From: Saxibacter everestensis
Lineage (GTDB): Bacteria; Actinomycetota; Actinomycetes; Actinomycetales; Brevibacteriaceae
Assembly (NCBI RefSeq): GCF_025787225.1
Contig: NZ_CP090958.1
Location: forward strand, 3,520,550-3,584,549
DNA: 64,000 nt
Reading direction: 5' to 3'
Shown: in pieces, positions 8,466 to 13,014 of the stretch
Layout of the letters: every line of letters begins with the position of its first letter
Position numbering within the stretch: the first letter of the stretch is position 1
Program-made: the position numbers and the translations under genes
The notes under the pieces: generated by a model
Database searches by the model: none
Told to the model about the DNA's origin: nothing
The model's input: the letters and a program-made list of their open reading frames with translations, nothing else

Positions 8466-10031
8466 GTGCAGAACTTCGACCTCGTGATCTCGAACGGCAC
8501 CGTTATTGACGGCACCGGAGCGGCCGGCCGTGTGGCCAATGTCGGCATCACCGGGGGCAGGATCACCGCCGTGACGCCGGAAGCAGTAACAGGAGAGATC
8601 GGCATCGATGCCGAGGGTAAAGTCGTGTGCCCTGGGTTCATCGACCTGCACTCCCATGCCGATTTTTCGCTTGAGGGCTGGCCGGAAGCCACCACGCAGC
8701 TGCATCAGGGCGTGACGACGCTACTGACCGGAAACTGCGGCTGGTCGCCGTTCCCGGTGGGCGAGATGGAACGGCTGCAACGTTGGACGTCGTTCCTGGG
8801 TCCCGAGATCAGCTGGGCCTGGCATGACACTGCTGGCTTCGCCGAAACCCAGAACGAGGCTCGTCCAGCGATCAATTCGATCCTCCAGGTCGGACATCAC
8901 GCGCTTCGGCTCGCCGTCATGGGCGAGGCGGAGCGGGCCCCGACGACCGAGGAACTGGACGGAATGTGCGAGCTGCTCCGGACCGCGGCATCCCAGGGCG
9001 CCCGTGGTTTCTCCACCGGGTTGATCTACGCTCCCGGAACCTATTCATCAGCCGCCGAGATCAGGACGCTTGTCCAGGTCGCGGCGGAATGCGATCTGCT
9101 CTACTCGACGCATATCCGCAACGAGTCGTTCAATCTGCTCGACTCGATCACCGAAGCGATCGAGGCAGCCGAGGCTGCCGGTGCGCGGCTGGAGATTTCA
9201 CACCTGAAAGCGGTGAGTAAGCCCAATTACGGCCGCACCGCCGATGCTCTCGCCCTGATCGACGCCGCTCGAGCGCGCGGCGTCGACGTGACGGCAGACG
9301 TCTATCCATACACGGCTTCGAGCACAACACTAACTACCCGGCTGCCGACATCCGCGCTCGATGGCGGGGTCGAAGCGTTTCTCGCCAGGTTGCGAATCCC
9401 GGATGAACGCTCGTCGATTCTGGCCGGCACCCGCGCCGCTTTCGCCCGGGACGGCATCGCTGACGGCGTCGTCATCTCAGCCTTGCCGCCCGGGCAGTAC
9501 GACTGGGCGCTCGGACTCTCGGTCGCCGAGATTGGGTCGCGGGAAGGAGTCGACGCCGCCGAGGCGACGCTTCGCATCCTGGAAGCGCATGAGGCTTCCG
9601 TCGCCATCGTGAGTCACGGCATGAGCGAAAACGATGTTCGGAACGTGCTCCGGCATCCGCAGGTGTCAGTCGCCAGCGACGGCTGGGTAATGAGACCAGA
9701 AGGCGAGGGGCAGCCCCACCCACGGAACTTCGGCACGTTCAGCCGGGTGCTCGGACACTACAGCCGAGACGAGAAGGTCCTCAGCCTCGAAGAGGCAATT
9801 CGGAAAATGACATCGCTACCGGCAAGCAGGCTGAAGCTGGCGGACCGGGGCGTCCTGGCCGAAAGCATGGTCGCCGACATCGCCGTCTTCGATCCCGAGG
9901 CGGTCTCCGACCCGTCGACCTTCCAGGACCCGTGGCAGCTGTCCACCGGGTTCTCCGAGGTACTCGTCGCCGGCCAGGCGGTGCTCCGGGATGGAAACCC
10001 CACCAAGGCTCGGCCCGGGATCGTTCTCTAA
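8466..10031 (+). CDS. N-acyl-D-amino-acid deacylase (D-aminoacylase)
   Basis: A 521-residue zinc amidohydrolase. It shows the N-terminal ISNGTVIDGTGAAG strand, the metal-binding HSHAD motif near residue 62, GNCGWSPFPVG with the D-aminoacylase Cys ligand, FSTGLIYAPGTYSS, THIRNES and ISHLKAV (both supplying metal-binding His), and late HGMSENDVRN and SDGWV containing the catalytic Asp. It hydrolyses N-acyl-D-amino acids to the free D-amino acid and a carboxylic acid, or a close variant (dihydroorotase-like N-acylglutamate). GTG 8466 starts two bases after the permease stop, forming a transport/hydrolysis operon. Confidence 0.85.
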   Translation: MQNFDLVISNGTVIDGTGAAGRVANVGITGGRITAVTPEAVTGEIGIDAEGKVVCPGFIDLHSHADFSLEGWPEATTQLHQGVTTLLTGNCGWSPFPVGEMERLQRWTSFLGPEISWAWHDTAGFAETQNEARPAINSILQVGHHALRLAVMGEAERAPTTEELDGMCELLRTAASQGARGFSTGLIYAPGTYSSAAEIRTLVQVAAECDLLYSTHIRNESFNLLDSITEAIEAAEAAGARLEISHLKAVSKPNYGRTADALALIDAARARGVDVTADVYPYTASSTTLTTRLPTSALDGGVEAFLARLRIPDERSSILAGTRAAFARDGIADGVVISALPPGQYDWALGLSVAEIGSREGVDAAEATLRILEAHEASVAIVSHGMSENDVRNVLRHPQVSVASDGWVMRPEGEGQPHPRNFGTFSRVLGHYSRDEKVLSLEEAIRKMTSLPASRLKLADRGVLAESMVADIAVFDPEAVSDPSTFQDPWQLSTGFSEVLVAGQAVLRDGNPTKARPGIVL

Positions 10032-10097
10032 GGCGGGCATTCCAGCGGCAGGTTGTCTCGGCATGTGCTCTGGCGCACCGGCCCTAGGTGCGGTGGC

Positions 10098-10137
10098 CGC
10101 GGCCGGCCCTAGGTGTACTGATCGGGGACGTTGGTTA
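10098..10137. repeat. Left arm of an imperfect inverted repeat bounding the 10.1-11.6 kb patch
   Basis: A 14-bp core (CCCTAGGTGTACTG, 10107-10120) recurs exactly in inverted orientation at 11592-11605. Matching continues imperfectly on both sides, including GTTGGTT on the inner side and GCCG outside. A 13-bp CCGGCCCTAGGTG direct repeat also lies at 10078-10090 and 10103-10115. Confidence 0.7.
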
Positions 10138-10232
10138 AGCGGTGGATGGGTGGCTGGTTCCCGATGGCGGTGTGTGGCCTGTGGTGAGCGAGCGCATACC
10201 GAGACCAAGCCTCCGGTTCGGTTGATTTGGAC

Positions 10233-10835
10233 TCAGTCGAGCTGGGCTCCAAAGGCGGCCGCCACATCTCGGGTGAGCTGGAGGCGTTGCTGCAGCTCGT
10301 CGAGGTCGGGCTCGCCCGGCCCGTGGATACTCACGCTGCCTGGCGCCAGCACCAGCCACATACGGGTCGCCGCCAGCGTCGGGCCCAGCGGGGCCAGGCG
10401 CTGTAGCGCCTCGGGGTCACCTCCGAAGTGCGACAGCTCGCCGCTCTTGACCAGCGGTCCGCCGCCGAGATCGCGGGGTACAGCCGTGGTGGCCATCCCG
10501 ATCTCGTCCTTGGCGACCGCTGCCATGCGCGGCAGGTTTTCTCGCGCGGCAGTCACGAGCACGTGCCACCGACCGTTGAAGGCGAAGCCGCCGATGTTCG
10601 GGGCGTCGGCTTCCCAGGACTGCGCGGTGAAGCCCTGCTGGGCCAGGTCGCCGACCACGAGGTTGCACACCTTCGGATGCAACTGCGGCGCTAGCACCTG
10701 CGATGGGTACTGGATCGTGGCATCGGGCGGGTCGGCGACGTACCAACCCTGCTCCCGAGCCCAGGCTGCGACCGGGCCGCGAGCCTCGCGACTGTGCTCC
10801 TCGCGTCGTTCCTTGAACTTGCCGAACACCGACAT
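10233..10835 (-). CDS. Hypothetical protein, 200 aa
   Basis: I do not recognise this protein. It starts MSVFGKFKERREEHSREARG (ATG 10835, with GAGGAG seven bases upstream) and looks like a soluble, folded alpha/beta protein with Trp- and Pro-rich segments. Examples are AWAREQGWYVADPP, NIGGFAFNGRWHVLVTAA, GPTLAATRMWLVLAPGSVSI and a C-terminal amphipathic helix DELQQRLQLTRDVAAAF. The last part may be a TPM/DUF3137-like surface, but I cannot assign it. It is the only intact gene in the patch between the inverted repeats, downstream of a truncated gene on the same strand, so it may be a surviving cargo gene of a decayed island. Confidence 0.6.
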   Translation of the reverse strand: MSVFGKFKERREEHSREARGPVAAWAREQGWYVADPPDATIQYPSQVLAPQLHPKVCNLVVGDLAQQGFTAQSWEADAPNIGGFAFNGRWHVLVTAARENLPRMAAVAKDEIGMATTAVPRDLGGGPLVKSGELSHFGGDPEALQRLAPLGPTLAATRMWLVLAPGSVSIHGPGEPDLDELQQRLQLTRDVAAAFGAQLD

Positions 10836-10953
10836 CCACTCCTCGGATCGGGTCAGGCATCCGAGCCTACGCCCCCGACACCGGCGTGGGAAGCGCCTGA
10901 CCCCGCGCCCGATCCTCCTGCCCGATCCTCGCGCCCGATCCCCGCGCCTGATC

Positions 10954-11256
10954 TCAGGGCTGGCCTGGCCTGCCGAGGAGCTGCGGATTCTCGGGGAATC
11001 CCGAGTTGCCATCGCCGGCCTCCCCGGGCTCGTCATCCTCGACGACATGTGCGGGCACGGAGTCTCGCGCCGCCTGCTGGATGTCCTCGCGCACCTCCTC
11101 CGCGATCTCGCTGATCTGGCGGCGCCACTCGAGCACGGCTCGGTCATGGGCATGCTTCACGCAGGTGGCGAGCCGACTGGGTGAGGTGGTCGGGACTCCC
11201 TCGGCGAAGTCGATCGAGGTCACCAGCGCCGTTGCGTCGAGGACCACGGTCACAAC
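10954..11256 (-). pseudogene. C-terminal remnant of an unrecognised gene
   Basis: On the minus strand the frame ending at 10954 reads as plausible protein for about 95 residues, starting near VVLDATALVTSIDFAEGV. It has a strong helix (RAVLEWRRQISEIAEEVRED) and an acidic low-complexity tail. No start codon or upstream body is present; the upstream bases run straight into the methyltransferase remnant on the other strand. This looks like the 3' end of a larger gene whose 5' part was deleted. Identity unknown. Confidence 0.45.
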
Positions 11257-11488
11257 CGGCGGCGGCTCATCGAAGCAGGCCCTGGTCATCGCTGACCGTG
11301 GAGAGATGAAGGTGCGCTGGCTGACGCCGGTCGAGTGCGCCCGCCTCATGGGTGCCGACAAGTTCAAGACGCGCGCGCGAACGGACAATCAGGAGCTCTT
11401 CGGGTTCGGCGACGCTGTGGTCGTCGACGTCATCGCCTGGATCGCCGACCACTACCTGCTTCCGCTACTTCGTCCCGCAGTGAAGTAG
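11243..11488 (+). pseudogene. C-terminal remnant of a DNA (cytosine-5) methyltransferase
   Basis: About 81 codons encode the last conserved part of a C5-cytosine methyltransferase. TTGGGSSKQALVIAD corresponds to the stretch after the target recognition domain, KVRWLTPVECARLMG is motif IX, and NQELFGFGDAVVVDVIAWI is motif X (N....GdAV). Motifs I (FxGxG), IV (PCQ) and the target recognition domain are absent from the flanking sequence, so the enzyme cannot be active. It abuts a minus-strand gene remnant at about 11240-11256, marking a deletion junction. Confidence 0.8.
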
Positions 11489-12040
11489 CTCCGTTTACAC
11501 TCGGACCTCAGCTCCACTCCACATTGGGAGGCCTTCTTCATCCCGTAAATTCAGACCGTGTCGTCGCACGAATTCAACCAACCTACCTAGGCAGTACACC
11601 TAGGGGCGGCGGCGCGGGGGCTCGTGGACGGGTGGCGCGTGCCATTCCGAGGGCGGACTCGGCATGTCGAGGCGTCTCTACGCATATATAGCGCAAATCC
11701 TAGGCAGCCGAATACGCTGCAATCGCCGTGCTCTCGCGTAGGTCGCGAGCCGTGTGCAGGAACCACGCCTGAATTCACCCGCGGTTTCGGCATAGGCTTC
11801 GCGTTCTAGGCGGCGGACCCGCATAGAGTTCGCGTTCTGCGCCCCGGGAGCCTTCGACAGGCCCAAGCCGACTTCCCTAAGGACACCGGTCGTCGAGGAC
11901 TGACTAACCCTGTATAGCTTCATCGCTAGCGACGTGGATACACCCCGATCGCAGACACGCCCAGTCATGCCGTCTGCCCGGAATCCGGCCTCAGGTGTGA
12001 AAGCCTGCAAGCGCAGCCCCACAACCGATTGAGGAGTGAC
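11489..12040. other. Gene-poor stretch after the methyltransferase remnant
   Basis: I see no convincing gene in these 550 bases. The stretch holds the right inverted-repeat arm (11575-11614), two CCTAGGCAG words at 11586 and 11699, and two TTCGCGTTCT words near 11798-11845. Its last bases contain GAGGAG, the ribosome site of the following gene. It is probably decayed accessory DNA plus that gene's promoter. Confidence 0.6.
11575..11614. repeat. Right arm of the imperfect inverted repeat
   Basis: CAGTACACCTAGGG at 11592-11605 is the exact reverse complement of 10107-10120, and neighbouring bases also match imperfectly (AACCAAC at 11576-11582 against GTTGGTT near 10130). Together the arms enclose the 200-aa gene and both gene remnants. 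Confidence 0.7.
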
Positions 12041-12610
12041 ATGGCCGAGAACAAGGGTGCCCACGTACTCGATCCGAACGAAACCGACCAGGACCGGACC
12101 CAGCTCCTGACCTCGTCTCGCCCGTCAACGGATGGCGAGACCCAGCGGCTTGACCGGTCGCCGCGTTCGACGTCAGCAGATCCGGAGAACGAGACGCTGT
12201 TCCGCCGGGACCGCGCAGAGACATTCCCACGGACGCATACCCCTGCGGATGACGATGGCAAGCCCGCCCGGACAAGCGGCAGCGCAGCCTTCGCCCTGAT
12301 TTTCGGTCTACTGGCTTTCGTCTCCGCCTTGACAGTCGTGCTGTCCCCGTTGGCCTTGATCCTGAGCATTTTCGGCCTCTTTCTCGGCATGGCAGGCTCG
12401 CGGGCGGCGCGATCCGTTCGGATCACCGGCAAGGCGCTCGCCGTGAGCGGCACGGTGCTTTCAGTCATCGCGCTGATTATTTCGGTCGCCGCGATCGCAG
12501 CCGGGATCATCTTCCTCAACAACGGTGATGCCGTCAGCGCGGCGGAGCAGTGGCTCGAACAGCTGCTGGCCGGTATCCCGAAGGACATCACAATTCCCAA
12601 ACCCTGGTAG
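12041..12610 (+). CDS. Small DUF4190-like membrane protein with disordered N-tail
   Basis: A 189-residue protein. Residues 1-80 are polar and disordered (Asp/Thr/Arg rich). Two close membrane spans follow (FALIFGLLAFVSALTVVLSP and LALILSIFGLFLGMAG), then a third (VLSVIALIISVAAIAAGII), and a short exposed tail ending PKDITIPKPW. The paired G-rich helices and the RITGKALAVSG turn resemble DUF4190-type actinobacterial membrane proteins of unknown role. I chose ATG 12041 (MAENKG) because GAGGAG lies five bases upstream. A terminator follows directly, so it is monocistronic. Confidence 0.7.
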   Translation: MAENKGAHVLDPNETDQDRTQLLTSSRPSTDGETQRLDRSPRSTSADPENETLFRRDRAETFPRTHTPADDDGKPARTSGSAAFALIFGLLAFVSALTVVLSPLALILSIFGLFLGMAGSRAARSVRITGKALAVSGTVLSVIALIISVAAIAAGIIFLNNGDAVSAAEQWLEQLLAGIPKDITIPKPW

Positions 12611-12627
12611 CAAGCTGAGCGACTAAG

Positions 12628-12659
12628 GGCCGTCGAGGCATGACTTCGACGGCCTTTTT
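12628..12659 (+). terminator. Rho-independent terminator
   Basis: A 9-bp perfect stem (GGCCGTCGA with TCGACGGCC) with a 9-base loop, followed by TTTTT, lies 18 bases after the stop of the gene at 12041. Confidence 0.9.
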
Positions 12660-13014
12660 GCTGTCCCCGCGCAGCAGCTGAAGCCCGGACGGAACACGGT
12701 TGAACACTGCCCGTCATGTCGCAGAACACCGACACTCATGTCTTAAGGACTTCGTAGACAGTAGACCGCACTTCGCGGCAGGCCCGCACGCCCTGCCCGC
12801 CCTCCAAAGCTGCCCGCAAGCCGCCCGTCAAAGCCCGCCAAGCCGCCCGGCACGCCCGCCCGGGACGCCCGCGTTCGCGGTTCCCCACAATTCCGCAGTC
12901 TTGGCTGCGGGCTACCACACCACAATCCGCATTCGAGTCTCTTCGCCTTGCGGCGGTCGTACGGTCTGGAAGTAACAGCTCAGCTAGCCAGCCCCGCACC
13001 GTTAGGAGGACACC
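12660..13014. other. Intergenic leader before the exopolysaccharide cluster
   Basis: No gene is supported here. Bases 12780-12870 are a C-rich, G-poor tract of degenerate GCCCGC/CCGCC units. A short inverted repeat CCGCAG-N6-CTGCGG lies at 12893-12910. The last 20 bases contain the strong ribosome site AGGAGG for the next gene. The cluster promoter is expected here, but I cannot pick a clear -35/-10 pair. Confidence 0.5.

Follow-up and report, generated by a model that had tools for sequence, protein, structure and literature searches.

Most members of the IS481 family of insertion sequences (IS) generate 6-bp target duplications, as stated in the accessible part of one survey (PMC10045372), and IS5564, together with Tn5564, is tabulated under this family in the portion consulted of another paper (PMC8304765). 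ISArsp12 is described, in the section of the source available, as an IS481-family element with the tip TGTACTGACCGGACACGTTG, a CCTAGA duplication and two passenger genes (PMC6305408), and its plasmid was also analysed directly in this work (locus L126). For TnRErm46, the excerpt of the report used here gives NCTAGN repeats and a target site that supplies the stop codon of the transposase (PMC6794481).

The locus presented here lies in the window, i.e., the whole 64-kb stretch of DNA that was analysed, and spans positions 10114–11598 (1485 bp), with a 6-bp target duplication on both sides. As far as the consulted section on ISArsp12 goes, the two elements share the tip TGTACTG, the NCTAGN duplication and the presence of other genes between the left end (LE) and the transposase, but ISArsp12 has a whole transposase, whole passengers and another LE type, whereas the element in the window retains a transposase remnant and an LE of the passenger-free type. 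TnRErm46/ISRe46 (IS481 family) is similar, according to the same excerpt (PMC6794481), in the NCTAGN duplication, the target-derived TAG stop and the position of the cargo towards the LE side; it differs as an active resistance transposon of 6.9 kb whose inverted repeats and cargo are not those of the window element. Three complete elements, L092 (in genome G069), L124 (Curtobacterium plasmid) and L127 (Arthrobacter sp. Rue61a plasmid), have the LE leader, the right end (RE), the TGTACTG tips and the 6-bp NCTAGN duplication in common with the window; each of them contains a transposase gene without additional DNA, in contrast to the window element, which has lost nearly all of its transposase and encloses 1321 bp of foreign sequence. 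The locus can with good confidence be regarded as what is left of a single, gutted IS481-family insertion from a CTAG-targeting, passenger-free lineage of about 1.1 kb. As a genomic fossil it is well preserved but ordinary, a decayed representative of an already known IS type. The following features were distinguished:

10108–10113, no strand: target duplication CCTAGG, left copy (from the sequence; in relatives, NCTAGN follows the RE)
10114–10187, minus strand: RE of the IS with approximately the last 25 transposase codons (68/79 positions identical to L092)
10233–10835, minus strand: complete ORF of 200 aa (weak relatives only)
10954 to ~11251, minus strand: YbaB/EbfC-like gene, 3′ part (45% over 53 aa against L044; right border taken from the methyltransferase side)
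~11252–11488, plus strand: C5 DNA methyltransferase, last 78 codons, 5′ part missing (PF00145)
11509–11598, minus strand: LE of the IS with its leader (87% over 98 bp against G069/L092, E = 7.7e-28)
11599–11604, no strand: target duplication CCTAGG, right copy (from the sequence; hexamer identical to 10108–10113)

Terminal repeats and target duplication

The first-pass annotation had pointed to a 14-bp core occurring twice in inverted orientation, with further imperfect matching around it, and both observations were reproduced. The 14-mer CCCTAGGTGTACTG was present exactly at 10107–10120 (plus strand) and, inverted, at 11592–11605 (minus strand), and the arms extended to 39 nt with 79% complementarity. 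With up to two mismatches allowed, the window contained 2 matches against a shuffle mean of 0.10, and a count of 2 was reached in 1 of 100 shuffles. The exact 14-mer had no further copies elsewhere in the 4.05-Mb genome, so that the scattering of the arms over random, unrelated places, which the annotation had named as an argument against its reading, was not observed. The 14-mer is composed of 7 bp of the IS tip (TGTACTG), 6 bp of the target duplication (CCTAGG) and 1 outer base. The data support the repeats as true element ends bearing a target duplication. Both arms carry terminal inverted repeats of the form TGT...ACA, like known CTAG-targeting members of the IS481 family, and both CCTAGG copies have the form of the 6-bp NCTAGN duplication of this group. 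The left copy additionally supplies the TAG stop of the transposase remnant. The agreement of the two target copies amounts to 6 bp, and an extra CCTAGG is located 25 bp outside, at 10083; altogether, CCTAGG occurs 5 times in the 64-kb window, 4 of these within or beside the element. A 13-bp direct repeat, CCGGCCCTAGGTG, at 10078–10090 and 10103–10115 (spacing 25 nt) overlaps the left target copy. A search of 58 other genomes with either intergenic flank gave no match covering it, and one IS match entered the left flank by about 15 nt; neither an empty site nor an intact allele was thus encountered in these genomes.

L092 is a complete IS of 1117 bp, flanked on both sides by GCTAGC, the transposase frame of which matched NF033577 with E = 7.6e-102. 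Because its LE matches the right arm and its RE matches the left arm, the two arms are identified from these alignments as the LE (right arm) and the RE (left arm) of a single CTAG-targeting IS481-family insertion sequence with the transposase on the minus strand. Identity to the LE of L092 reached 85/98 positions; this count and the 68/79 for the RE were derived from ungapped alignment scores and include a few positions of the target hexamer. The LE-matching place in G069 sits about 1 kb from the C-terminus of the transposase. Read on the minus strand, the left arm encodes HHRPHTAIGNQPPIHRLTNVPDQYT followed by the TAG stop, most likely the C-terminus of an IS481-family transposase, and the remnant of about 25 codons corresponds to residues 309–333 of the L092 frame (84%). 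No complete transposase gene, as an autonomous IS would carry, was found in the element. Initially, the arms were read as two right ends in opposite orientation, as TNLPRQYT-stop is another possible reading of the right arm; this was dropped when the right arm aligned beyond the tip with the LE of an IS in L016 and then matched the LE and leader of the complete L092. A match of TGTGGAGTGG in L098, considered as a leader, was also rejected, since it sits within a reading frame.

The same ends might, with some plausibility, have come from two IS copies in direct orientation that once flanked a cargo as a composite element, of which the outer LE and the outer RE remain. The outer duplication and the LE...RE order fit such a history, and deletions on the inner sides would yield the present structure, but one LE and one RE are all that was seen, with no remnant of a second copy.

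Relatives of the element and the lineage of its left end

When the other 59 family genomes were searched with the transposase tail of the left arm, 28 matches turned up, spread over 16 of them. Of the ten loci inspected first, nine show CAGTACA and then NCTAGN at the RE by pattern, and the tenth (L006) shows the same by eye. The hexamers of these nine relatives vary and none of them is CCTAGG; the equal hexamers on both sides of the window element therefore do not reflect a fixed preference. From the 28 matches, 13 stretches were taken for the lineage comparison, and two (L104 and L108) were dropped as they had no exact RE, which left 11 elements. The LE was found in all 11, with the flanking hexamers agreeing at 6/6 positions in 10 and at 4/6 in L109. 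Nine of these elements, 1771–3000 bp long, had other genes between the LE and the transposase, whereas two, 1094 and 1117 bp long, were passenger-free. In this sample of the bacterial family, passenger-carrying, CTAG-targeting IS481 elements are frequent, a point of use to curators of mobile elements. Reading of the translations in the 12-kb family stretches with the nine passenger elements (L098–L107) suggested that three genomes have an ABC transporter pair there and that several regulators are also among the passengers.

The LE of the window was compared with these ends beyond the tip. The resulting sub-tip score was 50 for L092 and 6–12 for the nine passenger elements, with shuffle maxima of up to 17. 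The short LE type does not map perfectly onto the passenger-free elements, since L109, though passenger-free, scored 11, within the range of shuffles. Seven of 25 plasmid records were examined, and five of the seven held an element with an LE and a matching hexamer, while L121, whose LE had no matching hexamer, and L122, in which no LE was found, were dropped. The short plasmid elements L124 and L127 (1108 and 1118 bp) scored 27 and 44, respectively, and the three long ones 7–10.

In the order-wide sample, the LE of L092 was matched in 27 of 396 genomes, that of the window included. Among the 35 matches outside the genome of the window, 24 were examined, the remaining 11 being matches to the inner part of the query only (5) or matches without a locus (6). 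A forward transposase was detected at 12 of the 24 loci, and its match started 119–174 nt from the tip in 11 of them and at 258 nt in L139; in L128, L134 and L147, the transposase was matched in part only. The other loci comprised six RE ends and six without a transposase, three of the latter offering less than 300 nt to inspect. At L137 (G408:C13:49250-49364), an LE with the tip and ACTAGG was followed by 1358 nt without a transposase match, and this may be another gutted copy.

The spacing of the LE and the lineage scores indicate that the most likely ancestor of the element in the window is a passenger-free IS, the interior of which was replaced. They also lower the standing of a transposon of the ISArsp12/TnRErm46 type, which would have carried its passengers between the LE and the transposase on arrival and later lost most of the transposase. 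This history is somewhat improbable, even though the window has the same order (LE, then other genes, the end of the transposase and the RE), nine of the 11 family elements with an LE carry genes at this place and 10 of the 11 show the 6/6 duplication. The LE and leader of the window are of the passenger-free type, with the scores against the nine passenger elements lying within those of shuffles as opposed to 50 for L092, and the long plasmid elements do not differ from those nine in this respect.

Gene pieces in the interior

From the RE inwards, homology to the IS extends as far as 10187, and from the LE inwards as far as 11509. In between, approximately 953 bp of the IS have been replaced by 1321 bp of other DNA, with a G+C content of 68%; the corresponding values are 52% for the LE, 61% for the RE and 63.5% for the window. 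At least two unrelated gene clusters contributed to this interior, and their pieces meet at ~11251|11252. Counted from the RE, it contains the 200-aa ORF (minus strand), the 3′ part of the YbaB/EbfC-like gene (minus strand) and the end of the C5 methyltransferase gene (plus strand). The annotation had named a 200-aa gene, a minus-strand gene of which the 3′ end is left and a C5 methyltransferase likewise present by its 3′ end, and all three were recovered; its view that the locus had been reduced by deletion is also upheld, as two gene fragments meet at one point and the transposase is almost gone.

Among the interior genes, only the 200-aa ORF could still yield a whole protein. The protein had no Pfam or NCBIfam match and no relatives in plasmids or in any of the 59 further family genomes, and the 89 pattern matches in the named genome collection included no true relative. 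Weak relatives (25–33% identity) were detected in 3 of the 393 other genomes of the class sample. In one of them (L044), a YbaB-like gene lies directly upstream of the 200-aa relative on the same strand, and the arrangement in the window is the same. The YbaB-like protein of L044 scored 24.3 bits against PF02575, just below the cut-off of 25.5, and its cluster also encodes a second YbaB-like protein exactly at the Pfam cut-off and a WXG100/PPE-like protein below the cut-offs. The 200-aa ORF and the YbaB-like piece, judged by these similarities, resemble a YbaB/WXG100-type cluster. The YbaB-like piece had no match in the loci of the other two relatives (L045 and L046) and no relatives in plasmids. 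Short 13-nt tandem units (CCCGATCCTCGCG-like) are present at 10901–10952, in the gap that separates the YbaB-like piece from the 200-aa ORF. No Rfam match at the gathering score was obtained over 9900–13000.

The methyltransferase piece matched PF00145 (E = 4.4e-5) at profile positions 269–320 of 324 and shares 84% identity with the end of a 406-aa enzyme from an Aeromicrobium MAG (L028), the contig of which also carries a TraG-type gene. Compared with 13 relatives, the methyltransferase DNA is homologous from 11252 onwards in seven, from 11251 in one and from later positions in five. The YbaB match starts at 11250 when the query is cut there, and a longer query stretched it by 15 residues at lower quality. 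We take this additional stretch to be a chance alignment, because the DNA past 11251 is clearly methyltransferase on the other strand; as the alignment can be stretched in this way, it is the methyltransferase side that defines the border at 11251. A single deletion is the probable cause of the fusion of the two genes.

In 8 of 13 loci (L028 counted), a relative of a GIY-YIG-type gene is located within about 0.8 kb downstream of the methyltransferase; the L028 protein itself scored 22.2 bits against a cut-off of 22.6. No relative of this gene was found in the 64-kb window, and the complete methyltransferase expected of a restriction-modification system is reduced to its last 78 codons. The own genome contains one other PF00145 match (profile positions 1–163) and gave no match to PF13011, for which the controls were equally silent. 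The annotation had taken the locus for a restriction-modification island with the arms as its own terminal repeats. The island is only partly right: the methyltransferase end is indeed present inside, but it is the only one of the three interior genes related to restriction-modification, and the ends belong to an IS. That the arms are the terminal repeats of such an island is very improbable, as they match IS481 ends, the GIY-YIG gene has no relative in the window and the exact tip-plus-CTAG pattern was absent from 19 loci with methyltransferase or 200-aa relatives (L028–L046). The locus is instead an IS with readable ends and a target duplication, nearly all of the interior of which has been replaced, and this corrects a tempting call. 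Hardly any weight can be given to two unrelated IS ends lying in opposite orientation by chance, for which the TNLPRQYT-stop reading of the right arm would speak, since 98 bp of the right arm align with the LE leader of L092, which is non-coding, and the outer hexamers are equal.

Proposed course of events and mobility

Starting from a passenger-free IS, the transposase would have bound the TGTACTG tips, inserted the IS into an NCTAGN site and duplicated this site, and the duplicated CTAG would have given the transposase its TAG stop. Foreign DNA may later have been placed between the ends, most simply by an incoming replicon recombining with the IS or in a two-IS composite. Subsequent deletions would have removed the inner parts of the IS, the 5′ half of each truncated gene (YbaB-like and methyltransferase) and the DNA between them, the order of these later steps being a proposal.

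The element cannot now move itself. The search of its own genome with the IS481 model gave nine matches, one of them above the cut-off; none of the four whose translations were read ends in QYT, and the transposase tail of the window had no second match in this genome. The ends look intact, and the element may be movable in trans by a related transposase. It can be speculated, as a rather unlikely generalization, that passenger-free, CTAG-targeting IS481 copies serve as docking sites into which plasmids or conjugative elements recombine; deletions would then trim the guest, and the intact LE and RE would leave a non-autonomous cargo unit movable in trans. If true, this route would be one origin of passenger-bearing IS481 transposons.

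A dispersed repeat without an Rfam match is located just outside the element, at 11725–11845. The pattern of its core, TGTGCAGGAACCACGCCTGAAT (11753–11774), was found in four copies in the genome, two per strand, with neighbouring bases also alike, and the reversed control pattern gave 0.
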